Positions 5,491 through 24,739 of a stretch of DNA of 64,000 nt are shown piece after piece (position 1 is the stretch's first letter; every line of letters starts with the position of its first letter). Position numbers and translations under genes: made by a program. Under the pieces are notes generated by a model that was given only the letters and a program-made list of their open reading frames with translations, was not told the DNA's origin and made no database searches. The DNA is from Paraburkholderia caffeinilytica (lineage in GTDB: Bacteria; Pseudomonadota; Gammaproteobacteria; Burkholderiales; Burkholderiaceae). Location of the stretch: positions 2,728,001-2,792,000 of the forward strand of contig NZ_CP031466.1 of NCBI RefSeq assembly GCF_003368325.1, read 5' to 3'.

Positions 5491-5500
5491 GAGACGTGCC

Positions 5501-6472
5501 ATGACCGAACTGAAATATGCCCAGGCCGTCAACCGTGCACTGCATGACGCGATGAGTGCCGACCCGACCGTCATGTTGCTGGGCGAAGACATCGCGGCCG
5601 CTGGCGGCTCCTTCAAGGCGACCCGGGGCCTTCTGGAAACATACGGACCCGCACGTGTGCGCGACACGCCCATTTCCGAGGCCAGCCTTGCCTCGCTCGC
5701 CGTAGGAGCGGCCATGACGGGCGTGAAACCGGTCGTCGAAATCATGTTTATGGATTTCGTGACGCTGGCCATGGATGCCCTCGTCAATCAGGCCGCAAAA
5801 GCGCGCTTTATGTTTGGCGGCCGCTCCAGCGTACCGATGGTCTTGCGAACGCCGCACGGCGGCGGTCTGAACGCCGGTCCTCAGCACTCGCAGTGCCTCG
5901 AGGCATGGCTCGCTCACGTACCGGGCCTGAAAGTCGTTTGCCCAAGCACGCCCGCAGACGCATACGGTTTACTGCGCGCCGCCATTGACGACCCGGATCC
6001 CGTCATCGTCGTCGAGCACAAGGCAATGTACGGCAACAAGGGCGAAGTCGATCTCACCGCCAGTATTCCAATCGGGGCGGCACGAACGGCGCGAGCGGGA
6101 CGCGACGTCACCCTTGTCACCTATGGCGCAACGGTCGCTACATCGTGTCAGGCGGCGGAAAAGCTGGCCGCCGAAGGCATCGAAGTCGAAGTCATCGATC
6201 TGCGCAGCTTGCAGCCCTGGGACAAACAGGCCGTGTATGCATCGCTTGCACGCACGCACCGGTTGGTCATCGTGCACGAAGCCGTCGAGGCGTTCGGTGT
6301 CGGGGCGGAAATCGCGGCGCGTGTCGCCGAGGATGCGTTCGACGAACTCGATGCCCCGATCCTTCGCGTCGCGGCCCCCTTTATGCCGGTGCCGTTTGCA
6401 CGCTCTCTCGAAGCGCGTTACGTCGTCACGCCCGAGCGAATCTGCGCTGCCGTGCGCCAGTCGATATCTTGA
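5501..6472 (+). CDS. 2-oxo-acid dehydrogenase E1 beta
   Basis: 323 residues; the ATG at 5501 has GGAG upstream and starts 10 bases after the E1alpha stop. Features of transketolase-like E1 beta: LLGEDIAAAGGSFKATRGL, RDTPISEASL, GVKPVVEIMFMDF, the phosphate/ThDP region near MVLRTPHGGGLNAGPQHSQ, and in the C-terminal domain LRSLQPWDKQ and VIVHEAVE. It forms the alpha2-beta2 E1 with the product of the gene before it. The frame is open for 27 further codons upstream, but those overlap E1alpha and are not family-like. Confidence 0.92.
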   Translation: MTELKYAQAVNRALHDAMSADPTVMLLGEDIAAAGGSFKATRGLLETYGPARVRDTPISEASLASLAVGAAMTGVKPVVEIMFMDFVTLAMDALVNQAAKARFMFGGRSSVPMVLRTPHGGGLNAGPQHSQCLEAWLAHVPGLKVVCPSTPADAYGLLRAAIDDPDPVIVVEHKAMYGNKGEVDLTASIPIGAARTARAGRDVTLVTYGATVATSCQAAEKLAAEGIEVEVIDLRSLQPWDKQAVYASLARTHRLVIVHEAVEAFGVGAEIAARVAEDAFDELDAPILRVAAPFMPVPFARSLEARYVVTPERICAAVRQSIS

Positions 6473-6484
6473 GAAGGAACTGCC

Positions 6485-7273
6485 ATGAACCAGGAACAAG
6501 CTGTACTCGTTGAACGCCGCGGCCCGGTCGGCGTGCTCACCATCAACCGTCCCAAGTACCTCAACGCACTCGATATCCCGACCTTGCTCTGCCTCGAAGA
6601 AGCACTCGGTCAACTGGAGCGCGATGCTGCCGTCAAAGCCATCGTGGTGACAGGTGCCGGAGACCGCGCCTTCGTGGCAGGCGGCGATATCGCGGATCTG
6701 AACAGCCGACAGGGCCTCGCGCACTACCAGGAGTTCGCGGAAATCATTCATCGCGTGTTCCGCCGGTTCGAGGACACCGACAAACCCACCGTCGCCGCGG
6801 TCAATGGCTGGGCTTTGGGTGGTGGCACCGAGTTGCTGCTGACGCTCGACATCCGGCTGGTCTCGGACCGCGCGCGACTCGGCCTGCCTGAAATCAACCT
6901 TGGCCTGTTCCCCGGCGCCGGCGGCTCGCAACGTCTGATTCGGCAGATTCCGCTTTGCCGTGCCAAGGAGCTGATGTTCACCGGCGACCAGATCAGCGCG
7001 GAAGAGGCTGTCGCACTGGGTCTGTGCAACCGTGTCGTGCAGGCTGACGCGTTGCTGAACGAGGCGCTGGCCCTCGCGGAACGGATCGCTCAAAAATCGC
7101 CGCTCGTGCTCAAGCTGCTCAAACGCAATGTGCGCCAGGGCCAGGAAATGCCGCTCGGCGCTGCGCTCTCCCATGAGCAGGCCATCATCGGCCTGGTGCT
7201 CGATACACGCGACGCCCACGAAGGCTGTCAGGCATTCCTCGACAAGCGCCCGGCCGACTTCAGGGGGCAATGA
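6485..7273 (+). CDS. enoyl-CoA hydratase/isomerase family protein
   Basis: 262 residues, full crotonase length. INRPKYLNALD, the oxyanion-hole segment AGGDIADL, NGWALGGGTELLLTLDIR with the first catalytic Glu, and LPEINLGLFPGAGGSQRL with the second catalytic Glu are all present, so hydratase activity is plausible. It hydrates a 2-enoyl-CoA to 3-hydroxyacyl-CoA. It lies between E1beta and E2, an unusual place in such operons, and its stop overlaps the E2 start by four bases (ATGA), so expression is coupled to the complex. Confidence 0.92.
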   Translation: MNQEQAVLVERRGPVGVLTINRPKYLNALDIPTLLCLEEALGQLERDAAVKAIVVTGAGDRAFVAGGDIADLNSRQGLAHYQEFAEIIHRVFRRFEDTDKPTVAAVNGWALGGGTELLLTLDIRLVSDRARLGLPEINLGLFPGAGGSQRLIRQIPLCRAKELMFTGDQISAEEAVALGLCNRVVQADALLNEALALAERIAQKSPLVLKLLKRNVRQGQEMPLGAALSHEQAIIGLVLDTRDAHEGCQAFLDKRPADFRGQ

Positions 7274-8505
7274 TCGTGCTGCGAGAATTTTTGATGCCCA
7301 AGCTGGGCTTGACGATGACGGAAGGTGTCGTCGCCGACTGGATCGTCCAGCCTGGCGGCGCTTTCAGCGCCGACGACGCCGTTTTCGTCGTCGAGACGGA
7401 CAAGGTGGCGAACGAGATTCCCGCAGAAGCCGCCGGCACGCTGCATGAAATCGTGGTGGCAGCGGGCGAAACCGTGCCCGTGGGGACTGTCCTCGGCTAC
7501 TGGGAAGATGGGAAGCAAGGCGAGCAGACAACCGCCCGGACAATCAACGTTGCAGAGCCAGCAGCGCCTCGTTCCGATATCGCATCGGTCCCGCGAGCAG
7601 CATCGAATGCAGCACGCCAATGCGCGGACACGGCGACTCGCGTAAAGGCCTCGCCGCTGGCCCGCCGTCTCGCGCAGCAGCGCGGCATTTCGCTCGCCGG
7701 CGTGCAAGGCAGCGGCCCCAAAGGACGCATCGTGGCGCGCGATATCGAGGCTGCGGCGAACAACGTATCGCAGGCAGCGCGCGTACAGCCGGAAGCTATC
7801 GAACTGAATCACGAGCCGAATCACGAACTGGTGCGGCCGAGCACCGTGCAAACCACGATCGCCCGCCGGTTGACGCAAGGCAAACAGGAAACGCCTCACT
7901 TTTACCTGACCCTCGACATCGAAGTCTCGCGACTGATCGCGCTGCGTAGCGAGATCAACGAGGGAGGCGACGGTCCGCGTCTTACGCTGAATCATTTCGT
8001 CGTACTGGCAGTTGCACGCGCGCTGCGAAGCCTGCCGCAGGCGAACCGCGTGTGGACGAACGACGGCATTCTCGCGTTCCGTCGAATCGACATAGGCGTC
8101 GCGGTCAGCACTGAACGGGGTCTTCTCGCGCCTGCCGTGTGCGATGTCGGCGACGTATCGATTGCAGAACTGGCGCGCCGCCTCGACGCTGTCGCTTCAC
8201 GCGCCCGCGGCGGCACGCTGCTGCCGCAGGACAACGGCAGCCCCGCCATCACGGTATCGAACGCAGGCATGCACAACGTAACGTACATGACGTCGATCAT
8301 CAATCCGGGCCAGGCCATGATCCTGGGCGTCGGCAGCATCAAGGAAGTGTTCCGCCCCGACGCCGCTGGTCAACCGGCACTGCGTCGCGAAATGGGTCTG
8401 GTGCTGTCGGCAGACCATCGCATCACGGACGGTGTGGCCGCCCTCAACTTTCTCAATGCTGTCGCGCGGTTGCTGGAGCGGCCCGCGCGGCTGCTGGCGA
8501 GCTAG
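7270..8505 (+). CDS. dihydrolipoamide acyltransferase (E2)
   Basis: 411 residues. Domains in order: one lipoyl domain (about 5-80; MPKLGLTMTEG and the lipoylated Lys in VETDKVANE), an Ala-rich linker, a peripheral-subunit-binding domain (about 120-157; ASPLARRLAQQRG, GSGPKGRIVARDIE), and the catalytic domain (about 190-411) ending with ADHRITDGVAALNF, which carries the His-x3-Asp-Gly active site. It moves the acyl group from E1 to CoA. Overlaps the crotonase gene by four bases; E3 follows after 15 bases. Confidence 0.93.
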   Translation: MIVLREFLMPKLGLTMTEGVVADWIVQPGGAFSADDAVFVVETDKVANEIPAEAAGTLHEIVVAAGETVPVGTVLGYWEDGKQGEQTTARTINVAEPAAPRSDIASVPRAASNAARQCADTATRVKASPLARRLAQQRGISLAGVQGSGPKGRIVARDIEAAANNVSQAARVQPEAIELNHEPNHELVRPSTVQTTIARRLTQGKQETPHFYLTLDIEVSRLIALRSEINEGGDGPRLTLNHFVVLAVARALRSLPQANRVWTNDGILAFRRIDIGVAVSTERGLLAPAVCDVGDVSIAELARRLDAVASRARGGTLLPQDNGSPAITVSNAGMHNVTYMTSIINPGQAMILGVGSIKEVFRPDAAGQPALRREMGLVLSADHRITDGVAALNFLNAVARLLERPARLLAS

Positions 8506-8520
8506 GCGACGGAGATCACG

Positions 8521-9930
8521 ATGACCACAACCACTACGCGCCCGGCCACGCTTATCGTCATTGGCGGCGGCCCCGCCGGCTATGTCGCGGCCATCCGCGC
8601 CAGCCAGCTGGGTATCCGCACCACGCTTGTCGAACGCGACGCACTGGGTGGAATCTGCCTGAACTGGGGCTGCATTCCGACCAAGGCGCTGTTGCATGCC
8701 GCGGACACGCTGTCCGCCGTGCGCAGTGCGTCGGACCTGGGTATCGACATCGCTGGTGACGTCACCATCGATATCGCTCGCATGGTGGGCCGCTCGCGTG
8801 CGGTTTCCGACCGCTTGCGTCAAGGCGTGCAGTACCTGCTCAAGAAGCATCGCGTCGAAGTCGTGCGCGGCCAAGCACGCCTTAACGGTGCGGGCGCCGT
8901 GCAAGTCACCGGCGAGGATGCCAAGGGCAATCGCCAACTGGATGCAGATGCGATCCTCATCGCGACGGGCGCCGGTCCACGTTCCCTCGAAACACTTCCC
9001 GTCGATGGCGAGCGGATCTGGAATTACCGTCACGCATTGGTGCCGCAAGCCGTGCCTTCGAGTCTGCTGGTCGTTGGAGCGGGTGCGATCGGCATGGAGT
9101 TCGCCAGTTTCTATGCGGCGCTCGGCACTCAGGTGACCGTTGTCGAAACGCGTGACGCCGTGCTGCCGAACGAAGACATCGACGTGTCGAATCATGTGGC
9201 GCATGCCTTTACGCAACGCGGAATCCTCGTTCGGACGGGGACGTCGGCCGCGCTGAACCGCCTTGCTGAAGACGCCGCGTGGATGACCCTGCGCACAGGC
9301 GACGCCAGCGATACCCTGCCCTTCGACAAAGTGCTCGTCTGTGCCGGCGTGGTCGGCAACACGGCCGATCTCGGCCTGGAGAACACGGCCGCCGTCATCG
9401 AACAGGGCTGCATCCGCGCCGATGAGTTCGGACGAACCGATGATCCGCGCATCTTTGCAGCGGGCGACGTTTGCGGTGCACCGATGCTCGCGCACAAAGC
9501 GAGCCGCGAAGCCGTACGTTGCGTTGAATATCTGGCCGGCTTGCAGGTCGATCCGCAGCCGCCGCTCATTCCTGCATGCACCTACTGCGATCCGCAAGTC
9601 GCAAGCGTCGGCTTGACCGAATCGGCCGCGCGCGCCGACGGCCGTGAGGTCTCAGTCGGCCGCATGCCGTTTCATAGCAATGGAAAAGCGCTTGCGCTAG
9701 GTCAGCCCGAAGGCTTCGTGAAAACCGTTTTCGATGCGCAAACAGGCGAACTGCTCGGTGCGCATCTGGTAGGAACGGAAGTGACGGAACTGATTCAGGG
9801 GCTCTCGCTTGCGCGTCAACTCGAAGCAACCGATGAAGACCTGGTGCAGCACGTCTACGCCCACCCGACTCTTTCGGAAGCCATTGGTGAATCCGCCCTT
9901 GCCGCCCTCGGCCGGGCGATTCACGGCTAA
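8521..9930 (+). CDS. dihydrolipoamide dehydrogenase (E3)
   Basis: 469 residues, usual length. FAD site IVIGGGPAGYVAAIRA, redox disulfide in GGICLNWGCIPTK, NAD-binding VVGAGAIGMEFASFYAALG, second FAD motif IFAAGDVCG, and the C-terminal dimer-interface YAHPTLSEAIGE with the His-Pro-Glu of the family. Reoxidises the dihydrolipoyl arm of E2 with NAD+. Completes a full E1-E2-E3 set and starts 15 bases after E2. Confidence 0.95.
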   Translation: MTTTTTRPATLIVIGGGPAGYVAAIRASQLGIRTTLVERDALGGICLNWGCIPTKALLHAADTLSAVRSASDLGIDIAGDVTIDIARMVGRSRAVSDRLRQGVQYLLKKHRVEVVRGQARLNGAGAVQVTGEDAKGNRQLDADAILIATGAGPRSLETLPVDGERIWNYRHALVPQAVPSSLLVVGAGAIGMEFASFYAALGTQVTVVETRDAVLPNEDIDVSNHVAHAFTQRGILVRTGTSAALNRLAEDAAWMTLRTGDASDTLPFDKVLVCAGVVGNTADLGLENTAAVIEQGCIRADEFGRTDDPRIFAAGDVCGAPMLAHKASREAVRCVEYLAGLQVDPQPPLIPACTYCDPQVASVGLTESAARADGREVSVGRMPFHSNGKALALGQPEGFVKTVFDAQTGELLGAHLVGTEVTELIQGLSLARQLEATDEDLVQHVYAHPTLSEAIGESALAALGRAIHG

Positions 9931-9985
9931 CCGTGCGCACCGCGCCGGCAGACATACCAACACAAATCAAGGAGGCAGATAAGCC

Positions 9986-11158
9986 ATGGACTTTCAACTT
10001 ACGCAAGAGCAACGCATGATCGTAGACGCTGCCCGCAAGGTGGGCGAGCGCTTCGGTCTCGACTATTGGCGCGACATCGACGCCAAAAAACAATTTCCCG
10101 CCGAATGCTGGAAGGCAATTTGCGACGCGGGGCTTTGCGGCGTGGCATTGCCATCCGAATACGGCGGCGCCGAACAGGGTGTGTTCGAAATGGCGCTCAT
10201 CATCGAGAACCTGTCTGCCGCCGGCGCCGGCAGCACGGTCGGGCAACTGTTCATGATCAACCCGATCTTCGGCGGTGTATCGATCAGCAAGTTCGGCACG
10301 CCCGAGATGAAGCGCGAACTGCTGCCCAAGCTCATTGCAGGGGACATCAACTTCTGCATGGCGCTGACCGAACCGGATGCCGGCACCAACACGCTTGAGA
10401 TTCGCAGCTTCGCACGCGCCGACGGCGACGGTTGGCGCCTCAACGGCCGCAAGATCTGGATTACCGCCGTCGACAACGCGCAGAAAATGCTGGTCGTCGC
10501 ACGCACCCGGCGCGTGGAAGAGTCGGAGTCGCGCAGCAGCGGCCTGTCGATGTTCATGATCGATGTGGAGCGCAAGGGTCTGTCGCACAGCCCGATCGAC
10601 AAGGTCGGCACCAACACCCTTCCGTCAAGCTCCGTATTCTTCGACGAAGTGCGTATCGAGCCGCACGAGCTGGTGGGCACGTTGCATGGCGGGTGGCGCG
10701 AACTGCTTGACGTCCTGAACACCGAACGCATTGTGACCACGGCGGGTCTGGTCGGCGCAGGCGAACTGTCGCTGAAGCTGGCGGTGAGCTACGCGAACGA
10801 CCGCAAGGTATTCGGCGGCCGTGCAATCAGCAGCTATCAGGGACTGCAGTTTCCTCTTGCGCAATGCCATGCCGAAATCGAAGCTGCGCGCCTTCTTAAC
10901 TACCAGGCAGCGACGAACTTCGATCGAGGACTGCCGTACGGCAGCGTCGCGAACGCCGCCAAACTGCTCGCCGCACAGGTGGCCGCGCGCGCAACCGAGC
11001 GCGCAATGCAGACGATGGGCGGCATGGGCTACGCAAAGGAATACCATGTGGAACGACTCTGGCGCGACAGCCGGCTCTTCCGTTTCGCACCCATTTCCGA
11101 AGAGATGATTCTGAACTACATTGCCAATCACGACCTCGGCATGCCTCGCTCCTATTGA
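9986..11158 (+). CDS. acyl-CoA dehydrogenase
   Basis: 390 residues; AAGGAGG a few bases before the ATG. N-terminal helical domain MDFQLTQEQRMIVDAARK; middle beta domain with FCMALTEPDAGTNTLEIRS and RLNGRKIWITAVDNA that hold flavin and substrate; C-terminal domain with FGGRAISSYQGLQFPLAQCHAE and MQTMGGMGYAKEYHVERLWRD. The usual EGT catalytic-base segment reads ISEEM near residue 375, so a Glu is present but the motif is changed, suggesting an unusual acyl group. Electrons would go to the EtfAB encoded divergently. It starts 55 bases after E3. Confidence 0.92.
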   Translation: MDFQLTQEQRMIVDAARKVGERFGLDYWRDIDAKKQFPAECWKAICDAGLCGVALPSEYGGAEQGVFEMALIIENLSAAGAGSTVGQLFMINPIFGGVSISKFGTPEMKRELLPKLIAGDINFCMALTEPDAGTNTLEIRSFARADGDGWRLNGRKIWITAVDNAQKMLVVARTRRVEESESRSSGLSMFMIDVERKGLSHSPIDKVGTNTLPSSSVFFDEVRIEPHELVGTLHGGWRELLDVLNTERIVTTAGLVGAGELSLKLAVSYANDRKVFGGRAISSYQGLQFPLAQCHAEIEAARLLNYQAATNFDRGLPYGSVANAAKLLAAQVAARATERAMQTMGGMGYAKEYHVERLWRDSRLFRFAPISEEMILNYIANHDLGMPRSY

Positions 11159-11212
11159 CATACATCGGACCTCGATCGCGCCATTACAAAGTACATCAGC
11201 GAGACACCCAAG

Positions 11213-12730
11213 ATGATTGCCCTGAGTTCCTCGATTCTCCACTGGGCCCGCTCCAATCCGGAGCGTATCGCGCTCACCTACGGCGAAGACCGCATTACCT
11301 ATGCGCAACTGGCCGAACGCACCTGTGCCGCAGCTGGCGCCTTGCGTGCCCAAGGCATCGGCGCCGGCGATATGGTCGCGCTGCTGATGAAGAACAGCGC
11401 CGCGTTTGTCGAGCTGACTCTCGCCATCAGCCATCTCGGCGCGGTACTGCTTCCCATCAACTATCGGCTTGGCAAGGATGAAGTCGACTACATCCTCACG
11501 CACGCCGGGGCAAAACTGGTCTGTGTCGACGAAGAACTCACGGACAACCTGCCGGATAATGCTGCGCGAATCGTGCTTTCTCGCGAGCAGCAAGGCGACA
11601 CGCGCCAGCTTGACCGGCACGCTGAGCCGGTAGAGACGGCGCATCCGGCAACGTCGTCGGACATGTTCCGCCTGATGTACACCTCCGGCACGACCGATCG
11701 CCCCAAGGGCGTGATTCACAGCTACGACAACTTCTACTGGAAGACGCTGGACCATATCTGCGAACTCGGACTGACGGCACAGGATCGGCTGCTGGTCGTG
11801 GGCCCGCTCTACCACGTCGGCGCCTTCGACTTGCCAGGCTTTGCCGTCTTCCTGACGGGCGGCTCCATGCATGTCATGCGCGATTTCGATGCGGAGCAGG
11901 TGCTGGTTGCCATCGAACAGCAGCGGGTGACAGGCGCATGGCTGCCGCCCGTGATGCTCAACCGGTTGCTCGCCCTGAAGAACCGCGGCGACTACGACAT
12001 GAGCACGGTGCGCTGGGTGATCGGCGGCGGTGAGCGCACGCCCGTCGAACGTATCGTCAGTTTCAGCACGCTATTCAGGCATGGCCGCTACATCGACGCC
12101 TATGGCCTGACGGAAACCTGCTCGGGCGACACGATGATGCAGGCCGGCCAGGAGCATCGCAAGATCGGCTCGGCGGGACGTCCGTTGGCCCATGTGCAAG
12201 TCGAAATCCGCGATGCCCATGGCGACAGGCTGCCTGCGGGTGAAACCGGCGAGATCTGCCTGAGCGGCCCCAAAGTCACGCCTGGCTACTGGAACGACCC
12301 AGGACGCACACGTGCGAGTTTCTTCGATCAGTGGTTCCGGACAGGTGACATGGGCTATCTCGACGACGATGGCTTTCTCTTCCTGGTGGACCGGAAGAAG
12401 GACATGGTCATCAGCGGTGGCGAAAACGTAGCTTCGTCAGAAGTGGAACGCGTGATCTACTCGCTCGACAAGGTCGAAGATGCCGCAGTAGTTGGACTAC
12501 CTGACGAGCAATGGGGCGAGCGCGTAGTTGCGGTGGTGGTGCTGCGCGAGGGCGAAACGCTAACGCTCGCGGAATTGCAGGCACATTGCCGCAACAAGAT
12601 CGGCGGCTTCAAGATCCCCAAGCAATTGTTCGTGGTCGATATGCTGCCTCGTACAGCCTCGGGGAAAGTGCTCAAGCGCGATCTGCGCGAACAGCTCGTT
12701 CATCAGGCGCCGGATGTCGGCAAGCACTGA
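11213..12730 (+). CDS. AMP-dependent acyl-CoA synthetase
   Basis: 505 residues of the ANL superfamily. The P-loop reads YTSGTTDRPKGVIHS (the usual Gly after TT is Asp), followed by GGGERTP, YGLTETCSGDTM, the hinge region TGDMGYLDDDGFLFLVDRKKDMVISGG and the C-terminal catalytic Lys in PRTASGKVLKRDL. It activates a carboxylic acid to acyl-CoA through an acyl-adenylate. Last gene of the plus operon; it probably primes the acid freed by the esterase of the convergent P450/BVMO block. The acid cannot be named from the sequence. Confidence 0.93.
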   Translation: MIALSSSILHWARSNPERIALTYGEDRITYAQLAERTCAAAGALRAQGIGAGDMVALLMKNSAAFVELTLAISHLGAVLLPINYRLGKDEVDYILTHAGAKLVCVDEELTDNLPDNAARIVLSREQQGDTRQLDRHAEPVETAHPATSSDMFRLMYTSGTTDRPKGVIHSYDNFYWKTLDHICELGLTAQDRLLVVGPLYHVGAFDLPGFAVFLTGGSMHVMRDFDAEQVLVAIEQQRVTGAWLPPVMLNRLLALKNRGDYDMSTVRWVIGGGERTPVERIVSFSTLFRHGRYIDAYGLTETCSGDTMMQAGQEHRKIGSAGRPLAHVQVEIRDAHGDRLPAGETGEICLSGPKVTPGYWNDPGRTRASFFDQWFRTGDMGYLDDDGFLFLVDRKKDMVISGGENVASSEVERVIYSLDKVEDAAVVGLPDEQWGERVVAVVVLREGETLTLAELQAHCRNKIGGFKIPKQLFVVDMLPRTASGKVLKRDLREQLVHQAPDVGKH

Positions 12731-12828: not shown

Positions 12829-13533
12829 TCAACCGCCCGACAGACCGTGTCGGATCAGTTTGCAGTAGGCTTTGACCACCCAGTCGGGAATTTCATTGTT
12901 GCTGCCGTCCTGGCTCGCGTAGCGCCCCAGATACAGACGCGCCGACATGAGCACGTAGGTCACGACTTCCAGTTCTCGCTCCGAAAACCCTCGAATCTCG
13001 CCGCCGCCCCGCGCCTTGCGCAAGAAGTGCATATAGCCTTCGCGAACGAGTTCCAGATGTGCCTCATACGCCTTGGGTGCAAAGCTCGGTGCCTCGTTCA
13101 GGATGCGGAAAAAATGCGGATGGATTCTGAGGAAAGAGAAAAAGCCCCGAAAACCGAGCTCTTCCCGTTCGAACAGCGTTTTCCCTTTGCTCGCGCAGGC
13201 GCCCACATGTTCGAGCATGTCTTTACCGAGTGCCGGCAACAACTGGTCGAGAATATCCTGCCTTGATTCGAAATGATTGTAGAAGGTCCCCTGCGCGACG
13301 CCGGCTCGCTGCGTGATGAACGTGATGGACGTATCCTGATAGCCCTTTTCGCCCACGACCTCAGCCGCGGCGCGAAAAAGCCCTTCGCGAATCAGCCGGG
13401 TGCGTTCGTCACGTGACCCGGCATCCCGCCAGTTCTGCGGTGCTGTTTCGACTTCGGCTAGTTCTGTGGCGTTTTGTCTGGAAGTGGACTTTCGAGTAAC
13501 CATACGGTGTTTGATGAATTGTGATTCGTCCAT
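12829..13533 (-). CDS. TetR-family transcriptional regulator
   Basis: 234 residues from the ATG at 13533 (another Met lies at 13503; the N-terminal 40 residues are a poorly conserved tail). The HTH is at about 60-85: AAAEVVGEKGYQDTSITFIT, then AGVAQGTFYNHFESRQDILDQLL. The C-terminal part is the ligand-binding helical domain. A palindrome matching two sites in the etf/E1alpha divergent gap overlaps its own start region, which suggests autoregulation and control of that gap. Such regulators beside acyl-CoA genes often bind acyl-CoA; the ligand here is unknown. Confidence 0.88.
   Translation of the reverse strand: MDESQFIKHRMVTRKSTSRQNATELAEVETAPQNWRDAGSRDERTRLIREGLFRAAAEVVGEKGYQDTSITFITQRAGVAQGTFYNHFESRQDILDQLLPALGKDMLEHVGACASKGKTLFEREELGFRGFFSFLRIHPHFFRILNEAPSFAPKAYEAHLELVREGYMHFLRKARGGGEIRGFSERELEVVTYVLMSARLYLGRYASQDGSNNEIPDWVVKAYCKLIRHGLSGG
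13514..13529. promoter_or_regulatory. putative TetR operator, copy 3 (autoregulatory)
   Basis: On the minus strand this reads ACGAATCACAATTCAT, sharing GAATCAC and the TTCAT arm with the sites at 4287 and 4459. It lies across the start region of the TetR gene, between its two possible start codons. Confidence 0.55.
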
Positions 13534-13627
13534 CAATCGTAACCTGAAAACGCCGAAGTTGACATCCCGTCCCGCCCTGAAAAACGGCAATTTGCCCCCT
13601 GGAAGGGAAAAGATGTGACCCGGCAGG

Positions 13628-14037: not shown

Positions 14038-14778
14038 TCAGAAGAGATATCGCCCGCCGTTCACACTGAGCGTTTGCCCCGTCACATAGCCTGCTTCCTC
14101 GGAGACAAGATAGGCCACGGCGTGAGCAATATCGTTCGGCTGACCCGCGCGCTTCATCGGCATCGTTCGCGCCACGGCATCCACGTCGACCGGACCCTCC
14201 CGTACCAGCGGCGTATCGACAAAGCCCGGCGGAACGTGATTGACGGTGATCCCCTTGTCGGCGAACTCGATCGCAAGGGCCTTGGTGAAACCGATCACGC
14301 CGCCCTTCGACGCAGCGTAGTGCGCCATCGCCGGTGCACCCGTCTGCGCGGACGACGAAGAGATATTGACGATTCGCCCCCAGCCAGCATCGAGCATGTC
14401 AGGAATGAATTCCTTCGTCACCAGAAACGGCCCCTTGAGGTTCACGCCGATGATGCGGTCCCACACTTCCTCAGTGAGGCCCGTAAACGGCACGTAACTG
14501 CTGATCCCCGCATTGTTGACGAGTACCGTGACGGGTCCAAGTTCTTCGCGTGTGCGCGCCGCCGAGTCGGCGATGGCATCGGCGACGGCTGCATCGCCCG
14601 CAACGGCGATCGCCTTGCCGCCCGCTTCGTGGATGATGTCGGCCGTTTGCGCGGCGCCTTCGGCGTTCAGATCCCATACGGCAACCGCCGCGCCGTACGC
14701 GGCGAGTACCGTTGCGATGGCACGGCCGATTCCACGGCCACCGCCCGTGACAACAACATTCTTTCCCTTGAGTGACAT
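14038..14778 (-). CDS. short-chain dehydrogenase/reductase (FabG-like)
   Basis: 246 residues. TGGGRGIG cofactor loop (about 11-18), AVWDLN with Asp favouring NAD, NNAGISS, NISSSSAQTG with catalytic Ser, YAASKGG with Tyr-x3-Lys, and FVDTPLV. The usual VNAIAPG reads VNHVPPG. C-terminal VTGQTLSVNGGRYLF is the normal ending. It likely interconverts an alcohol and ketone of the pathway. Last enzyme gene of the minus-strand P450/BVMO series, 48 bases after the CMD gene. Confidence 0.88.
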   Translation of the reverse strand: MSLKGKNVVVTGGGRGIGRAIATVLAAYGAAVAVWDLNAEGAAQTADIIHEAGGKAIAVAGDAAVADAIADSAARTREELGPVTVLVNNAGISSYVPFTGLTEEVWDRIIGVNLKGPFLVTKEFIPDMLDAGWGRIVNISSSSAQTGAPAMAHYAASKGGVIGFTKALAIEFADKGITVNHVPPGFVDTPLVREGPVDVDAVARTMPMKRAGQPNDIAHAVAYLVSEEAGYVTGQTLSVNGGRYLF

Positions 14779-16533: not shown

Positions 16534-16728
16534 TCATTCTTCGATACGGATTGCGAGCGCAGGGCACACGGCAGCGGCCTGGCGAACGTTCTCGGCTTCT
16601 TCGGGCGGGGGATTCTCATTCACGAAGATCACGATGCCGTCCTCTTCGCGCTGGTCGAACACATTGGGCGCGTAGGCCACGCATTGGCCTGCCGCGACGC
16701 ATTTTTCCTGGTCGATGAAAATCTTCAC
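16534..16728 (-). CDS. small P450-type ferredoxin
   Basis: 64 residues; GTG start with AAGGAG upstream. Single-cluster ferredoxin of the kind that serves P450s: CVAAGQC (Cys10 and Cys16) and VCPAL (Cys55 followed by Pro), so only three Cys ligands line up and the cluster is probably [3Fe-4S], or [4Fe-4S] with one other ligand. It shuttles electrons from the FAD reductase encoded next upstream to the P450 encoded next downstream. Confidence 0.92.
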   Translation of the reverse strand: MKIFIDQEKCVAAGQCVAYAPNVFDQREEDGIVIFVNENPPPEEAENVRQAAAVCPALAIRIEE

Positions 16729-16852
16729 TTCAGACTCCTTTCTGGCATGACTTCAAGTTGATCGAATACATGGGTGCTTCTACTGGTCGACGACGATCCG
16801 CGGTTCGATCACCTCCTTTCACATCCTTTGCTGCCCAATGATCGATCACTGG

Positions 16853-19027
16853 TCATGCCGATGTCCGGCTCAGATGCGTCGCGTCGACGACGTCCTGCCG
16901 GTGCTGACGAACCTGCTTGGGCATGTTCCAACCGAGCACGCCCGTCACGACACCATCGCTCGTGTAACGCGCGACGAACCGGCGTGCCGAAAAATCGCCC
17001 TCGACAATCTCCGCCTGCGCGTCGGCCGCGATCGCACCGAACACCTGAATCTTCACGTCGAACTGATCGGTCCAGAAATACGGCACAGGCGCATAGGGCG
17101 TGTCTTTGCCGAGAATGCACGCCGCAACGGCTTCCGCCTGTTCGGTGGCATTGGTCCGGTTCTCGAAGCGCGTCAGACGGCCCAGTTTCTCGTGATGCCA
17201 TCGTGCGACGTCGCCGACCGCGTAGATTCCATCGGCGGCGCGGCAGCGCGAATCGCACACGATGCCGTTGTCGATACGCAGTCCGCTGCCTTCGAGCCAA
17301 CCTGTCGCGGGCGACGCCCCGATGGCGACGACCACGACATCGGCAGGCAGTACTTCGTCGTTTGCGAGTCGCACGCCGGTGACGCATCCACCTTCGCTCG
17401 TCAGTCCGTCGACGCCTGTACCCAGCCGCAGCGATACGCCGCGTTCCTTGTGGACGGTCGCGAGCAGGCCCGACGCAAGCGGCCCGATCTGCGCTGCCAT
17501 CGGCGCGGCGAGCGGTCCAACGAGCGTCACGTCGAGCCCCAGCGTGCACGCCGTCGCAGCGATCTCGGAACCGAGCACACCTTCACCCACCACGACAAGC
17601 CGCGAGGACGTGCGCAATGCTTCGCGCAGCGCCAGCGTGTCGTCAAGCGAACGCAGCACATGCACGCCGGCAAGCTTCGCTTGTCCCGGCAACCTTCGCG
17701 CATGCGCGCCTGTCGCAATCACGATTGCGTCCGCTTCGAAACGACGCCCCGACGCCGTGCGCACGCTGCGCGCCTTGACGTCGAGTTCCACCGCCGACTC
17801 GCCGAGCACGAATTCGGCATCGAGCGCAGCCAAAGCCTGCGACGGACGCAGCGCTGCCCGCTCGGGCTCCCACGCACCATGCAGCACCTGCTTCGACAAG
17901 GGCGGACGGTCGTACGGCACATGCGGCTCATCGCCGATCAGCGTGATACGACCTTTGTAGCCGCCACGCCGCAGCGCCTCCGCCGTACAAAGACCGCCCG
18001 CCGATGCACCCACGACGAGCACACTGCCTGGCGCTGTCGTCGAATCGCGTCGCGCTTCGCTGCCACCGTGCGCACGCACCCGGGGATCGCCCGGTTGCAG
18101 CGTGGTCGTGAAACCCCACGGCACACCGAGACTGTCCTCCGGCTGCGCGACGATGGTGGTTGCCGATCGATCGCGAATGCCGACGCCCAATGTGGCGAGA
18201 TGGCGCTCCACGCCTTCCAGATCCGCGACCTTCCACGTGATCGCATAGTACGAATCGTTCGGCGCACGCGCCGCGAGGTCGGCACGAGCGGGCGTGCCGG
18301 GATCGGGCACCGCGTACTCGATCAACGTATCGGCGATCGCTACAAAGACGCTTGTCGCGCCCAGCACTTCGTTGCGGCCACGATGCACCACCGTGCCGCC
18401 GAGCGCGTCCACCGCGAAGCGCAGCGCACGCTCGGGCTGACTCGTCAGGATGGTGTGATGCGAACAGTGCTCGATACCGAGCGGATCATCCGCGTCGACC
18501 GGGCCGAGCGCCCAGCCCGGTGTCGCGCGCGGGTCGAGTGGAAAAGGCCCTTCGCGAAAGAACTGGTATTGCATCCCCGCGTCTTCGGGCACCACGAAAA
18601 AAGTCACCACGCCGCCGCCTGGCGAGAGCGGCGGCTCGTCGCCTTGCGCGATGTTGTCGGACAGATCCATGCAGCGGAAGCCGTTGCGGCGCAGCGCGTG
18701 ATAGAGATCCGTCATGCCGTCGACGTACCAGCCGATTCCCCGGAGGCCCGGCGTCTGCACGGCGGGATAGCGCTGCCGGCCGTTGATGAAGTGCAGCTTC
18801 GGGTCGATGGTGTCGAAGAACACATCGCGAATGACCGTGAAGGTCGAGTACTCGGTGGGGTACTCGGGTGTCGACGGCAGCATCGCCGACAGCGACGTGC
18901 TCTTGCGCCCGAATGCGCGCTCGAACCATTGCTCCGCTCGCGCGAGGTCGGGCACTTGCGCAGTCGGGTGGAAGACCCTCATGACGCGAAAACCGTGCGG
19001 CGTCTCACTGATGGCGTGGCTCGTCAC
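16853..19027 (-). CDS. fusion: double VOC domain + FAD ferredoxin reductase
   Basis: 724 residues in one uninterrupted frame; GTG start overlapping the BVMO stop by four bases. Residues about 15-310 look like two vicinal-oxygen-chelate (glyoxalase/extradiol dioxygenase fold) modules: VFHPTAQVPDLARAEQWFERAFG begins the first and HCSHHTILTSQPERALRFAV the second, with LIEYAVPDPG as a later strand. Residues about 330-724 form a putidaredoxin/rubredoxin reductase: VLVVGASAGGLCTAEALRRGG for FAD, YDRPPLSKQVL, IVIATGAHARRLPG, NAD motif VVVGEGVLGSEIAATA, and IYAVGDVARWH. Reductases of this family are usually about 400 residues and stand alone. The reductase half should feed the adjacent ferredoxin and P450; the role of the VOC half is unknown. 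Confidence 0.9.
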   Translation of the reverse strand: MTSHAISETPHGFRVMRVFHPTAQVPDLARAEQWFERAFGRKSTSLSAMLPSTPEYPTEYSTFTVIRDVFFDTIDPKLHFINGRQRYPAVQTPGLRGIGWYVDGMTDLYHALRRNGFRCMDLSDNIAQGDEPPLSPGGGVVTFFVVPEDAGMQYQFFREGPFPLDPRATPGWALGPVDADDPLGIEHCSHHTILTSQPERALRFAVDALGGTVVHRGRNEVLGATSVFVAIADTLIEYAVPDPGTPARADLAARAPNDSYYAITWKVADLEGVERHLATLGVGIRDRSATTIVAQPEDSLGVPWGFTTTLQPGDPRVRAHGGSEARRDSTTAPGSVLVVGASAGGLCTAEALRRGGYKGRITLIGDEPHVPYDRPPLSKQVLHGAWEPERAALRPSQALAALDAEFVLGESAVELDVKARSVRTASGRRFEADAIVIATGAHARRLPGQAKLAGVHVLRSLDDTLALREALRTSSRLVVVGEGVLGSEIAATACTLGLDVTLVGPLAAPMAAQIGPLASGLLATVHKERGVSLRLGTGVDGLTSEGGCVTGVRLANDEVLPADVVVVAIGASPATGWLEGSGLRIDNGIVCDSRCRAADGIYAVGDVARWHHEKLGRLTRFENRTNATEQAEAVAACILGKDTPYAPVPYFWTDQFDVKIQVFGAIAADAQAEIVEGDFSARRFVARYTSDGVVTGVLGWNMPKQVRQHRQDVVDATHLSRTSA

Positions 19028-20706
19028 GACTGCTCTCCCGTTTGCTGTGTTGCGCTCGCGGTCTCGCTGTCATCAATGCAAGCGCGACCTTGCGACATCA
19101 CGAAGGTATTGAATTGCGCTTCGCGGCTCTTCGCCATCACGTCGAAAAGCATGCCGCGCCCCGCTGGGTTCAGCAGAAACTTGCGCGGCTTGCCCGGAAT
19201 GTTCGAGCCGAAGTAGTAGCTGTGCTCCGGACTGAACGGCGAGTAGGAAGCCATCGCATTGACCGTGTTGCTCCACTGGTCTTCGGCCGCCTGGCTCGGC
19301 TCGACAACGTCGTAGCCACGCTCGCGCATATAGGCGAGCAGTTCCATCGTGAAGTCGACCTGGTCGCCGTTGTAGCGCGGGTTGTTGGCTGCCGCGCCAT
19401 GCGGGCCGCCTGGAAAGAACAGGTTCGGAAAGCCCGTCGCCTGAATGCCGAGGAACGTGCTCGGACCATCGCGCCATGCGTCTTCCAGCGCGACGCCGTT
19501 GCGTCCACGAATACCCATGCGTTGCAATGCGCGCGCAAAATCGAAGCCCGTCGCCCAGACGATGATGTCGAATTCTTCCACGCCATGGGCTGTCTCGACG
19601 CCCTTTTCCGTCACCTTCTGGATCGGCGTTTCCTTCAGCGAGACCAGCTTGACGTTGGGCTTGTTGAACGCCTCATAAAAGCCGGTCGCATAAGGCGGAC
19701 GCTTCTGCGCGTAGATGTGGTCCTTCGGAATGAGCAGCTCGGCCGTCGCCGGGTCATTGACGAGACCACGAATCTTGCCCGCGATGAACTCGGAGAACTC
19801 CTTCCTGAGATCCGCATTCGTGAAGAAGTCGCTATAGTTCGACGTCATCTTCGAGAAGCCGGGACTGTTCCACAGTTTTTCGTAGAAGGCCTGACGCTCT
19901 TCCAACGTATCGTCGGTCGAGGCGCGCTTGTACGGCTCATGCAGAAAGCCGCTGATACTCGTATCCAGCGTCTGCTTGATCGTGGTGTAATCGGCGCGCA
20001 GCCCCAGCTGTTCGTCTTCCGTGATGGGGCGGTTGTTGAGCGGCGTACACCAGTTCGGCGAACGCTGATACACCGTCAGCGAAGCCACTTCGTCGGCAAT
20101 GGCGGGAACAATCTGCACGCCGCTCGAGCCTGTGCCGATCACGGCGACGCGTTTTCCCTTGAAGTCCACCGGCGTCGAAGGCCAGAGCCCTGTGTGATAC
20201 GACTCGCCCGCGAAATCTTCGCGCCCGGCCACGGACGGGTAGAACGGCACCGACAGCACGCCCGTCGCGGCGACGAGGTAGCGGGCGATGTGAGTCGACC
20301 CATCGCTGGATTCGATCGTATATGTGCCGCTGTTTTCATTGAACATCGCCGACGTGACGCGCGCATCCAGACGGACGTGACGCCGCAAATCGAAACGGTC
20401 GGCGACGTGATTCAGATAGCGCTCGATTTCCGGCTGCGCAGCGAAGTGTTCGGACCAGCGCCAGTCATCGAAGAGTTCCTTCGAGAACAGGTACGCATAG
20501 GTGTAGCTCTCCGAATCGAAGCGCGCCTCCGGGTAGCGATTCCAGAACCACGTCCCGCCGATGCCCTTCCCTGCTTCGAGCAATACGGCGCTGAGACCCG
20601 ACTCGAGCGCACGGTACAGCTGATAGAGGCCCGTGATGCCCGCCCCTACGATCAGCATGTCGACTTGAGCCGGGGCCGAGGCGTTCTGAACGGCGGATGC
20701 TTGCAT
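19024..20706 (-). CDS. Baeyer-Villiger flavin monooxygenase
   Basis: 560 residues from MQASAVQN; the ATG at 20706 has AAAGGAC upstream and the longer frame is not family-like. FAD motif LIVGAGITGLYQLYRA, GGTWFWNRYPEARFDSES, the BVMO fingerprint FAGESYHTGLWP (pattern FxGxxxHxxxWP) near residue 170, NADPH motif VAVIGTGSSGVQIVPAIA, and WATGFDFARAL. It inserts oxygen beside a ketone to give a lactone or ester. Its stop overlaps the VOC-reductase start, and the esterase gene lies 20 bases upstream, a pairing seen in ketone-degrading pathways. Confidence 0.93.
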   Translation of the reverse strand: MQASAVQNASAPAQVDMLIVGAGITGLYQLYRALESGLSAVLLEAGKGIGGTWFWNRYPEARFDSESYTYAYLFSKELFDDWRWSEHFAAQPEIERYLNHVADRFDLRRHVRLDARVTSAMFNENSGTYTIESSDGSTHIARYLVAATGVLSVPFYPSVAGREDFAGESYHTGLWPSTPVDFKGKRVAVIGTGSSGVQIVPAIADEVASLTVYQRSPNWCTPLNNRPITEDEQLGLRADYTTIKQTLDTSISGFLHEPYKRASTDDTLEERQAFYEKLWNSPGFSKMTSNYSDFFTNADLRKEFSEFIAGKIRGLVNDPATAELLIPKDHIYAQKRPPYATGFYEAFNKPNVKLVSLKETPIQKVTEKGVETAHGVEEFDIIVWATGFDFARALQRMGIRGRNGVALEDAWRDGPSTFLGIQATGFPNLFFPGGPHGAAANNPRYNGDQVDFTMELLAYMRERGYDVVEPSQAAEDQWSNTVNAMASYSPFSPEHSYYFGSNIPGKPRKFLLNPAGRGMLFDVMAKSREAQFNTFVMSQGRACIDDSETASATQQTGEQS

Positions 20707-20726: not shown

Positions 20727-21797
20727 TCACAGTGAGTGTGCGAAAGCCGCGATATCGTCGAGCGTCGCGTGGTACACGTCGGGAATCGCCTTCATGAAAT
20801 TGATTTCGGCCGCGTGGCACGTACCGTTGACCGTGCGTGCCCTCGCCTGCACGCCGGCAGCGAGAAGCTTGCGGTAATAAGCCAGGCCCTCGTCGCGGAA
20901 CGGATCGAGCTCGTTGACCGAAATCGCGTGCGGCGGCAGTCCTTCGAGATCGGCTTGACTCGCGTGATACGGCCACGCCAGCGGATTCGCCGCGTTCTCG
21001 CCGTCGGGGTCGTATGCAATAGCCGTTGCTGCAACCACGGCCAATGGCGTGTAGAGGCCATCGTTTTCGTAGAGCGATTGCAGTTCGGGCCGCTTGCTGG
21101 CATACGCGTTAGAGATGTACGGACACAGCGCATAGACACCATCGACTTCGCGCAACCGGTCTTCGCGCTTCGCCTTGAGCGTGGCCGCCAGCCCGAGGTT
21201 GGCGCCGCCGGAGTCGCCCGAAATGATGAGCCTGGCGATGCCGAGCTTCGCCTTGTTCGCGTGCACCCAACGGAGTGCGGATGAAACATCGTTGAGTCCG
21301 GCGGGAAAGGGATTCACGCCAAGACGTCCCGTCGCGTTTCGGAATTCGACGCCGATCACGACCAGCTTCCTGGCAGCGAGATCGCTGCGCCAACGCGTAT
21401 AAAGCGGCCCTTCGGCATCGAGGATGCACATACCGCCTCCATGCAGGTGCAGCACGCCGGGCACTGCACCGTCGATACCGTCTGGCCGATGAATGAAGAG
21501 GCTGATCTCATTGCCGTCCACGCCCGGGATCTTTTCGATGGTGGTGCTCACGCCCTCCACCAACGGCATGCCGGCGACGGAAGCGGCAAAAAACTCGACA
21601 GAACCAGCCTCGGCTGCCGCAAGATACTGACGAATGCCTTCAAGCGGCGTATTGCTGTCGACATAGACAGGCGGGTCGCCGCCCATTTGCGCAGCCTCCA
21701 GCGCCGCAACGAGACGCGGGTCGGCGCGTGGATCGTCCCGGATGACGAGATCCGGATTGCCCAGCTTGCCGGGACGGTGGAGTTGAATGTCTGCCAT
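20727..21797 (-). CDS. alpha/beta hydrolase, HSL-type esterase
   Basis: 356 residues; AGGAG before the ATG. Hormone-sensitive-lipase group: HGGGMCIL oxyanion-hole motif, nucleophile elbow GDSGGANLG, catalytic Asp in ELDPFRDEG and His in GTCHAAEIN. Longer than the usual 310 residues because of an N-terminal cap of about 95 residues. No signal peptide, so cytoplasmic. It most likely cleaves the ester or lactone made by the BVMO next to it; the product acid would suit the acyl-CoA synthetase. Confidence 0.9.
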   Translation of the reverse strand: MADIQLHRPGKLGNPDLVIRDDPRADPRLVAALEAAQMGGDPPVYVDSNTPLEGIRQYLAAAEAGSVEFFAASVAGMPLVEGVSTTIEKIPGVDGNEISLFIHRPDGIDGAVPGVLHLHGGGMCILDAEGPLYTRWRSDLAARKLVVIGVEFRNATGRLGVNPFPAGLNDVSSALRWVHANKAKLGIARLIISGDSGGANLGLAATLKAKREDRLREVDGVYALCPYISNAYASKRPELQSLYENDGLYTPLAVVAATAIAYDPDGENAANPLAWPYHASQADLEGLPPHAISVNELDPFRDEGLAYYRKLLAAGVQARARTVNGTCHAAEINFMKAIPDVYHATLDDIAAFAHSL

Positions 21798-21871: not shown

Positions 21872-22648
21872 TCAGGCGGTAGCACCGCCATCGACGGGAA
21901 TCGCCACGCCTGTCATAAAGCTCGACGCGTCAGAGGCGAGGAAGAGCGCCATGTGCGCCATCTCCTCCGGTGTGCCCATTCGCCGCAACGGCACTGATGC
22001 CGAGATCTGCTCGATCGTCGCCTTGACGATTCCATCCGCAATGTCGCGCCTGAGGGCAGGCGTATCGGTCGCACCCGGGCAGATCGCGTTCACGCGGATG
22101 CCCTCGGGCGCCAGCAGTTGCGCAATCGACTTCACGTACTGGATAAGCGCGGCCTTGCTCGCCGAATAGGTCGGAAAAAACGACACCGCCTTCAGGCCGG
22201 CAATCGACGACGTGCAGATCACCGATGCCGAAGAGGAAGTGCGCAGCAACGGCAAGAGCCGCTTGGTCAGGATCATCGGCACCCAGACGTTGATCGTCAT
22301 GCAGGTGTTGAAGCTTTCCGCGTCGTACTCGAAACCCGGTGGTGCGGGCAGGCCGGCGTGATTGAACAGAATGTCGAGCACGGCGTGATCGCGCAGGAAT
22401 GTTTCGACGAATGCATCGAGGGCAGCCTGATCGAGCAGATCGACCTGATGCGCTTCTGCCGAGCCGCCGGCATGCCGAATTTCAGCCGCCGTTTCTTCGG
22501 CGGCAGAACCATTGCGATCGACAATAACCACATGCGCACCTTGAGCGCCGAAAAGCAGCGATGAAGCGCGCCCCATGCCGGAAGCTCCGCCCGTAATGAG
22601 CGCTTTCCTCCCCACGAGCGACATCGCTTTGTCGAGACTGCCCGTCAT
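21872..22648 (-). CDS. short-chain dehydrogenase/reductase
   Basis: 258 residues; AAGGAG before the ATG. TGGASGMG loop, VIVDRN (Asp: NAD preference), NHAGLPAPPG in place of the more common NNAG, TSSIAG catalytic Ser, YSASKAALIQYVK with Tyr-x3-Lys, CPGATDTP. Likely oxidises the alcohol made by the P450 to a ketone for the BVMO, by position. It is 33 bases from the porin and 74 from the esterase gene. Confidence 0.88.
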   Translation of the reverse strand: MTGSLDKAMSLVGRKALITGGASGMGRASSLLFGAQGAHVVIVDRNGSAAEETAAEIRHAGGSAEAHQVDLLDQAALDAFVETFLRDHAVLDILFNHAGLPAPPGFEYDAESFNTCMTINVWVPMILTKRLLPLLRTSSSASVICTSSIAGLKAVSFFPTYSASKAALIQYVKSIAQLLAPEGIRVNAICPGATDTPALRRDIADGIVKATIEQISASVPLRRMGTPEEMAHMALFLASDASSFMTGVAIPVDGGATA

Positions 22649-22681: not shown

Positions 22682-24301
22682 TCAGATAATCCAGTACAGA
22701 CTGAGCAGTACATTGAGTGCATTACCCTCTCCCCTGAATTCCGACAAACTGGGCTTATCCGTATAGCCCAATCCGGCAGTGGCATAGAGGCCCGGCATGA
22801 CGTGATACGTGTACGACGCGGTAATGCTGTTCGCACCGCTGATAGCAAAGAAGTTCGTATAGGCGGTGTAGTTGTTGATGACGCTCTGAACGTTCCTGCT
22901 CGTCTTGTTGTGGCTATAGACGAACGACAGAAGATCGGTCGGCCGGCTCGCAAACGGGCCAACCCAATAGGCGCGAGCCTCGTAGTACTGAGTAAAAGGC
23001 GTCGATTTCGGGTCGCCATACATGAAGCTGCCACCGACATACATGCCCCGGTAGGCTGTGTAGGGTGAGCCCGGCGCCGACTGCGTCACCTGATAGTCGC
23101 CGAGTAGGTAGAGCCCATACGAACCATTCTTCGTCGCGTGCGGGTCCTGCAGCATGCGGCTGTAGTCCGGGAACGTCGAGTTGTTGTACATGAAGCCGGC
23201 ACGAAGCCAGGTAAAAGGCGCATCTGGCGACGACGGGCGCTTGTAGCCGAATTCGTTGATCGACAGCACGCGCGTTCCCGGCACAGACGATGTGAATCTG
23301 AAGCCTGTCGGATTCGTATTCACTTCGTCATAAATGGAATTGCCCGTCGGCCCGTTCACCGGCAGGCTGCGCTGAATCGCCGTCTGCGCGTACAGCGTAT
23401 TCGTGACATTCCATTTGATGCGGAAATTCGGCGTGCTGATACTATTGGGCGACATGCCGAGAACGATTGGAACCGACGACGAAGGGCCGAATGGATTGAC
23501 AACCAGTCCGCCAACGAACGTGCCGGCAAACTCAGGCAGGTTCGCAAAATAGCCGGCCTTGATTTCCAGCTTTTTGTCGAGGAGCGTCTGGTACCACGAA
23601 ATACTGTTTAAACGCGCGGTATTCGGGTTGTACTGCTGGTCATTGCTGACGCCAAAGTTGGTACCCACGGCAATCTGACCATCCGGTATGCCATGTTGGC
23701 TCATGTCATACGTGAGAAACGCAGAGTTCGCGAACATAACGCTGGGTCGTTGACCAAAGTACGACCGTCCGCCGGCGCAGTTGTAGTTCAGACTGTTGGG
23801 TCCGCAGGGCGCAAAACCCGATGAAGGAATCCTGCTGGGCGTATTGAGCAGGTTGTCCTGGAAGATCGTCGAGCCTTGTATCGAGAATCCAAAGCCGTAC
23901 TCCGCCAGCTTCGTCCGCCAGTTTCCATAGTCGAGTGCAAGGGTGTCGCCATAGGATGGAAACGGCACGATCCACCCCTTGTAGCCGTACTTCGCGTCGA
24001 GCGCATAGGCACGTGCGGCTGAACTCGCTGACGCGTCGGGCGTAGCTGCTGACTCAGGCACTGCCGCTACGGGCGGGTTGATCTGCGATACGTCTGTCGA
24101 GACGGCAGGCTCCGCCGCCTTGACCGGGAAGGCGCTCATGACAAACGCGCTCAACGCAGCCCCGGATGACACAAGGACACGATGCCGGAAGCGTTCTACT
24201 TTCCCGCAGAGGGAAAAGGCATGGAGGGAATGCCGGTACCGTATTCCTGATACGTCTGGCACAACTGGTTCACATCTCGTGCCGATGTTTCTGTCAATCA
24301 C
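22682..24301 (-). CDS. OprB-family outer-membrane porin
   Basis: 539 residues. GTG start at 24301 has GGAGA at good spacing, although this places about 35 residues before the hydrophobic signal segment (about 40-62, ending KAAEP), so the signal is unusually long or the true start lies inside. The mature part begins with an Ala/Pro linker then WRTKLAEYGFGFSIQGSTIFQDN, QRPSVMFANSAFLTYD and aromatic alternating beta strands typical of carbohydrate-selective porins. The C terminus ends LSLYWII, not in the usual aromatic residue. It probably admits the pathway substrate; it precedes the SDR-esterase-BVMO-P450 series. Confidence 0.82.
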   Translation of the reverse strand: MIDRNIGTRCEPVVPDVSGIRYRHSLHAFSLCGKVERFRHRVLVSSGAALSAFVMSAFPVKAAEPAVSTDVSQINPPVAAVPESAATPDASASSAARAYALDAKYGYKGWIVPFPSYGDTLALDYGNWRTKLAEYGFGFSIQGSTIFQDNLLNTPSRIPSSGFAPCGPNSLNYNCAGGRSYFGQRPSVMFANSAFLTYDMSQHGIPDGQIAVGTNFGVSNDQQYNPNTARLNSISWYQTLLDKKLEIKAGYFANLPEFAGTFVGGLVVNPFGPSSSVPIVLGMSPNSISTPNFRIKWNVTNTLYAQTAIQRSLPVNGPTGNSIYDEVNTNPTGFRFTSSVPGTRVLSINEFGYKRPSSPDAPFTWLRAGFMYNNSTFPDYSRMLQDPHATKNGSYGLYLLGDYQVTQSAPGSPYTAYRGMYVGGSFMYGDPKSTPFTQYYEARAYWVGPFASRPTDLLSFVYSHNKTSRNVQSVINNYTAYTNFFAISGANSITASYTYHVMPGLYATAGLGYTDKPSLSEFRGEGNALNVLLSLYWII

Positions 24302-24341
24302 GTTTGTCTCCGATATGATTCGTTATACGTAATTTCTCTTT

Positions 24342-24626
24342 CTACACCATTGTGCTTCGCACCTTTTTCGTCACTCTGTCTGGAATGAGTTGATCATCGA
24401 GCACAGGGGCGAGATCAGTTCTCCGGACACGAGTTTCCTCGCGAGCATGCCGGTCTGGCGGCACGCGCTCTGCGTCGCTCGTGTTGCCTTCGCGCTGCAC
24501 GCACGAAGAATCCATGCCCGTTGCTGTCATTCCTGAGCTGGTCGGATCGTGGCTCGCGGCTTCAGCAATGTGCAGAACACTCGTCAATGTAAGCAGGGCA
24601 AACGCTCTCCCAAGTAGTCGAACCAT
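24342..24626 (-). CDS. small exported protein, unknown
   Basis: 94 residues; GGAG seven bases before the ATG. A signal peptide is clear (MVRLLGRAFALLTLTSVLHIAEA), leaving about 71 mostly hydrophilic residues with many Arg and Asp and a single Cys. No family recognised. It starts the minus-strand series, 40 bases before the porin, so it may be a periplasmic partner of the uptake system, or a short non-conserved frame. Confidence 0.5.
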   Translation of the reverse strand: MVRLLGRAFALLTLTSVLHIAEAASHDPTSSGMTATGMDSSCVQREGNTSDAERVPPDRHAREETRVRRTDLAPVLDDQLIPDRVTKKVRSTMV

Positions 24627-24723
24627 GACGCGTCTCCGTTGTGTGCAGCGCCGTCGGGCACCTGATTTCAGGTAGATGTCAAACGATCAGCCGGGGGCGA
24701 TCGATGCCGCTCATTTGTGATTG

Positions 24724-24739
24724 GTGAACCAGTGTTCAT
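24724..24739. promoter_or_regulatory. possible fourth TetR operator, before porin operon
   Basis: On the minus strand ATGAACACTGGTTCAC: the same ATGAA/TTCAC arms and six-base centre as the sites at 4287 and 4459, but the centre differs (CACTGG, not TCACSR). It is 98 bases upstream of the exported-protein gene that begins the P450/BVMO series. Confidence 0.4.

Follow-up and report, generated by a model that had tools for sequence, protein, structure and literature searches.

The window, a 64,000-nucleotide stretch of the Paraburkholderia caffeinilytica genome, holds a catabolic operon on the minus strand. From its upstream end it encodes an OprB-family porin (22682..24301), an SDR dehydrogenase (21872..22648), an alpha/beta hydrolase of the Abhydrolase_3 type (20727..21797), a Baeyer-Villiger monooxygenase (BVMO; 19024..20706) resembling OTEMO, its closest solved chain (1.8e-138), and phenylacetone monooxygenase, a 724-residue fusion protein (16853..19027), a ferredoxin (16534..16728; Fer4_13), a cytochrome P450 (15257..16489, its start read as the ATG at 16489) whose closest solved chain is CYP105Q4 (4.3e-133), and, downstream of the P450, a second SDR dehydrogenase (14038..14778); a TetR-type regulator lies beyond, on the same strand (12829..13590). 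The 64-residue ferredoxin, encoded between the fusion and the P450, carries a [3Fe-4S]-type CxxAxxC...CP motif with cysteines at positions 10, 16 and 55. On the plus strand, positions 4522..12730 encode 2-oxoacid dehydrogenase E1 alpha and E1 beta, an enoyl-CoA hydratase, E2, E3, an acyl-CoA dehydrogenase and an AMP-binding ligase, all likely to act in the lower pathway. The related cluster in Rhizobium lusitanum likewise has E1, hydratase, E2, acyl-CoA dehydrogenase and AMP-binding genes beside it. OTEMO is a BVMO of the camphor pathway, and the P450, the BVMO and the CoA-type gene set would fit the breakdown of an alicyclic, terpenoid-like compound.

Upstream of the porin, the region from about 24300 to 31500 has few long genes and may hold either duplicated regulators or decayed DNA. 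Two frames in it look TetR-like by eye, with similar N-termini in opposite orientation (26252-26833, plus strand; 27768-28319, minus strand), and a shorter, related-looking frame lies between them (27167-27583, plus strand). A separate small protein of 143 residues that looks VOC-like by eye (31263-31694, plus strand) is encoded just upstream of a biotin carboxylase/carboxyltransferase set.

The fusion is encoded by an unbroken frame of 724 codons whose GTG start overlaps the BVMO stop as GTGA. The sequence-only reading had proposed that this frame joins a VOC module to an FAD/NAD reductase beside a P450, and the open reading frame, Pfam and AlphaFold2 all confirm that it does, with a ferredoxin gene adjoining as well. 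A double VOC module of an uncharacterised family occupies about residues 13-308 (18104..18991), followed by a linker at residues 309-333 (18029..18103), in which residues 321-329 have pLDDT below 50, and by the ferredoxin reductase at residues 334-712 (16892..18028). Pfam assigns Glyoxalase_4 to residues 25-121 (6.5e-7), Glyoxalase to 190-283 (2.1e-4, a whole-protein E-value, as no single stretch passes alone), Pyr_redox_2 to 335-631 (3.8e-54) and Reductase_C to 650-712 (9.9e-11). The reductase half thus has the Pyr_redox_2 plus Reductase_C composition of the PdR/BphA4 type. Its GASAGG at 340, PYDRPPLSK at 371 and GEGVLGSE at 481 are what we take to be the glycine-rich FAD/NAD motifs and the PYxRPPLSK of that type. 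The P450 and ferredoxin are separate genes, so the protein is not a self-sufficient P450 or P450-redox fusion.

Modelled alone, residues 1-323 form two VOC domains (AlphaFold2; pLDDT 93, pTM 0.91), and the model together with Pfam shows the paired beta-alpha-beta-beta-beta modules that define the VOC superfamily. The whole fusion was predicted with a pTM of only 0.60 and a disordered linker, as for a beads-on-a-string arrangement. Because only 4 of the 49 alignment rows in that job cover both halves, the low value may reflect missing information and is no proof that the halves do not pack.

We then asked how common this architecture is. Single proteins had been expected to be the norm for such reductases, and this was borne out by a search with the reductase half: 115 of the best 120 of 3031 matches are single reductases of 398-427 residues. 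The same 120 include three full-length fusions, namely P0001, the window's own, and P0002 and P0003, each 77% identical to it, as well as P0004, a fragment that runs across the VOC-reductase junction. Also among the 120 is P0119 (476 residues), a reductase with a single-cluster ferredoxin attached to its C-terminal end; seen beside the window's fusion, it shows the reductase joined to neighbours on either side. When proteins of fusion size were searched with the VOC region, five matched, namely P0001-P0004 and P0241 (445 residues; 45% over 73% of the VOC region). We rejected the last as an artefact, since Pfam recognises no domain in it and the stretches outside the match appear to be translated in the wrong frame. 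Likewise, a 580-codon open frame in genome G036 is not a second fusion: its VOC match is the end of a 547-residue ORF, the earlier portion of which reads an upstream 582-residue flavoprotein gene in a different frame. The number of fusions is a lower bound, the reductase and VOC-region searches having scored only the 7994 and 7990 candidates, respectively, that share most words. P0002-P0004 lie on contigs of 1.7-4 kb, labelled jgi and lgn by source and probably metagenomic. Between fixed motifs at the VOC end and the reductase start, P0001-P0004 have 25, 34, 30 and 34 residues, respectively, with little sequence in common. The fusion of a VOC module to a ferredoxin reductase is real and rare.

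Genome samples, which partly overlap, gave the same picture. The full fusion was found in one of 146 relatives at E <= 1e-100 and in one of 369 genomes of the class at 1e-85, in both cases the window's own genome. At E <= 1e-30 the VOC half was found in 1 of 398 genomes of a phylum sample (the window's own), in 3 of 144 in the window's genus (its own and two at 36% identity), in 2 of 343 in the family of Collimonas (both of them the two Collimonas genomes discussed below) and in 2 of 297 in the order of Rhizobium rhizogenes (the R. rhizogenes genome and one at 34%). So patchy a spread suggests horizontal transfer of the catabolic cluster.

Unfused loci occur in Collimonas OK607 and OK307, which share the window's gene order (porin, SDR, hydrolase, BVMO, VOC, reductase, ferredoxin, P450, SDR) at 74-92% identity and encode the VOC protein and the reductase as two genes overlapping by ATGA. 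Relative to both strains, each half of the fusion has a dN of 0.11-0.12 against a dS of 0.99-1.15, the latter near saturation, indicating that the VOC and reductase halves are both maintained, as under purifying selection. Five of the loci we read contain a close VOC relative (the window, L001, L002, L003 of R. rhizogenes and L013, on a plasmid of R. lusitanum); in each of them the VOC gene comes directly after the BVMO gene, and in three of the five the reductase adjoins it. In both Rhizobium clusters the reductase-ferredoxin-P450 set lies 12 kb from the VOC gene and on the opposite strand: in R. lusitanum the set is at 160382-163070 (minus) and the VOC gene at 175199-176179 (plus), and in R. 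rhizogenes, on one contig, the reductase is at 3510-4667 (minus) and the VOC gene at 16756-17682 (plus). A plasmid of Streptomyces NBC_00080 carries relatives of the reductase (75%), ferredoxin (70%), P450 (62%), SDR (78%) and BVMO (60%), and a search confined to this plasmid found no VOC match at E 1e-5; 2 of 72,556 plasmid records match the VOC half, and this plasmid is neither of them. The reductase set thus occurs without the VOC gene, and in the loci read the VOC gene goes with the BVMO branch and the reductase with the ferredoxin and P450. Of the other P450-BVMO loci, which the sequence-only reading had proposed to check for the fusion, the two Collimonas loci and the two Rhizobium clusters have the VOC protein and the reductase as separate genes, and the Streptomyces plasmid gives no VOC match.

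More distant VOC relatives (34-36% identity) in three genomes lie beside a luciferase-like monooxygenase and an aldolase, or beside an FAD_binding_2 flavoprotein, SDRs and MFS transporters. No Reductase_C protein was found among the 10, 6 and 4 neighbouring ORFs scanned, which are part of the ORFs there, the 10 counting the VOC protein itself. In two same-genus genomes the FAD_binding_2 gene directly precedes the VOC gene (L034, 5252-7000; L033, 5904-7652), and its product looks ketosteroid-dehydrogenase-like.

What might the VOC half do? A search limited by protein length, and so with fusions outside its range, found 382 relatives at E <= 1e-3. We aligned the window's sequence with 56 of the 120 listed relatives (alignment A2, 57 rows) and found 29 invariant columns, which suggests that the family has a specific activity. 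Residue 155 (18563-18565) is Glu in 37 rows and Gln in 20, including the window, and residue 261 (18245-18247) is His in 45 and Tyr in 12, again including the window; these variants may mark different activities within the family.

The description of this half as extradiol-dioxygenase-like holds for superfamily and fold and fails for the metal site. Judged from spacing and a weak profile alignment, both VOC domains keep the first-strand histidine (H20 and H190, each in 56 of 57 rows) and the fourth-strand acid (D72 in 57, E237 in 52). At the position expected for the second-module histidine, 50 rows have Gly in the first domain (G97) and 50 have Ala or Ser in the second (A262). In the 4-hydroxyphenylpyruvate dioxygenase (HPPD) / hydroxymandelate synthase group, the final module contributes the second His ligand from its first strand, and the C-terminal domain contributes the metal-binding Glu from its last. 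Structures of this group (2r5v, 7yvv, 1cjx) are alike in fold at 10-17% identity to the VOC half, but the latter has neither Glu nor Asp on its last modelled strand, residues 305-307 (G-F-T), where W304 and F306 are invariant and G305 is kept in 55 of 57 rows. Searching the PDB with the single sequence gave no credible relative, and the best profile match was methylmalonyl-CoA epimerase (E 0.016), whose metal set is His12, Gln65, His91 and Glu141. In its alignment with the epimerase structure 1jc4, A262, whose neighbour is the His or Tyr at 261, falls on His91 in a weak match (i-Evalue 0.085) and H20 on His12 at 0.4 bits only, with Gln65 and Glu141 outside the alignment. The apparent lack of the second His and the missing Glu at the end of the second domain argue that this is not a standard HPPD-type site. 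With metal sites seemingly incomplete by homology, the VOC half could be a binding domain instead of an enzyme.

Taking these observations together, we favour, at a probability of roughly 80%, a bifunctional protein in which two adjacent, translationally coupled genes have become one and each half works separately; their operon would serve the breakdown of an alicyclic, probably terpenoid-like compound. The C-terminal half would accept electrons from NAD(P)H, and its FAD would pass them to the [3Fe-4S]-type ferredoxin encoded downstream, which in turn would supply the CYP105-like P450. The N-terminal half would be a separate VOC-superfamily enzyme of the pathway, tied by gene order to the ring-opening steps of the BVMO and hydrolase; that it might be an enzyme of its own had been one of two suggestions made from the sequence alone, and it fits the gene order better than a coupling of the halves does. 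A flexible linker would tether them and fix a 1:1 ratio, with chemical coupling needless. Sequences 77% identical retain the fusion, so tethering may bring a benefit.

The strongest alternative, tentative but deserving real weight, is that a junction indel brought the two reading frames together, giving a product that still works and gains nothing from the joining. The ATGA-overlap arrangement of Collimonas would need just an indel to fuse, and the fused form is rare and patchy; against this, sequences about 77% identical keep it with both halves intact. This reading departs from the bifunctional protein we favour only in denying a benefit, and our confidences in the two are thus not exclusive. 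The junction stretch measures 81 nt in the window, where it is in frame, and 110 nt in Collimonas OK607, where it is not; the fused and two-gene states therefore differ by an indel, and from the rarity of the fused form we infer the direction from two genes to one. As to the number of origins, reductase trees grouped P0001 with the other fusions in 0%, 0% and 10% of bootstrap trees, and in the reductase tree without Collimonas rows P0001 pairs with P0005, an unfused Xylophilus reductase (100/88), the starred branches forcing two changes. The VOC and joined trees grouped the fusions in 78%, 76% and 63%. The pairs P0130/P0006, P0127/P0118, P0203/P0109 and P0206/P0062 were assumed to share a contig purely because their longest contigs are equally long, P0123/P0005 being matched also by organism name. 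An AU test did not reject a single origin (p 0.158).

We consider it improbable, by a wide margin, that the VOC half serves for sensing or docking, binding the alicyclic substrate or product of the P450 or BVMO and, through the tether, gating, directing or localising electron delivery by the reductase. The physical fusion, the conservation of both halves and their place in one operon speak for such a role, and the partly missing canonical metal ligands would suit binding. However, the VOC protein has its own gene after the BVMO gene in the unfused loci read, stands 12 kb from the reductase in both Rhizobium clusters and was not found on the Streptomyces plasmid that carries the reductase/ferredoxin/P450 set, while the linker is variable and predicted to be disordered, with no fixed arrangement of the domains predicted. 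The earlier suggestion of substrate-coupled electron delivery through the VOC half is thus left unsupported. A sequencing or assembly error that merged two genes is scarcely credible, for although nearly all listed reductase relatives are single proteins, P0002, P0003 and P0004 encode the same domain order with different linkers on other public contigs, which weighs strongly against an error in the window, and its frame has no stop, with only GTG or CTG as possible in-frame starts in residues 301-350.

Taken as a gene arrangement, the fusion is a modest step in evolution. In the literature searched we found no description of a VOC-ferredoxin reductase fusion, nor of VOC as a domain partner of P450 ferredoxin reductases, in line with the earlier impression that no example had been described. 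Its wider interest is that it draws attention to a two-domain VOC family, conserved but uncharacterised, whose gene comes after that of the BVMO in the five close loci read. Should a specific step around ring oxidation fall to this family, the fusion would be a ready test construct.

Among known systems, the reductase half aligns with putidaredoxin reductase (1q1r; fusion residues 333-716, 1.1e-56) and with 1d7y (residues 334-696, 6.2e-53) and 3ef6 (residues 336-668, 1.8e-57), this set comprising putidaredoxin reductase and the biphenyl and toluene dioxygenase ferredoxin reductases (PF07992 + PF14759). It shares their glycine-rich motifs, and ferredoxin and P450 genes adjoin it; unlike them, it is preceded in its chain by a VOC module of about 310 residues and is partnered by a three-cysteine [3Fe-4S]-type ferredoxin. 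According to PMC6237146, CxxA/GxxC(X)nCP is the [3Fe-4S] form, and related ferredoxins are paired with CYPs, CYP105Q4 among them. In the Mycobacterium marinum CYP105Q4 system there is likewise a small single-cluster ferredoxin with a non-cysteine residue in CxxXxxC; this residue is Ala, the classical [3Fe-4S] form, in the window's ferredoxin and Ser in the neighbour of CYP105Q4 (PMC6237146). The window's operon also differs in including a reductase. The paper further mentions a ferredoxin-ferredoxin reductase fusion in the Myxococcus xanthus CYP147A1 system (PMC6237146). The M. xanthus fusion and P0119 are the same type of event as the window's, a P450-type reductase gene joined to a neighbour, but they add the next electron carrier to the reductase, whereas the window's fusion adds an unrelated pathway protein.
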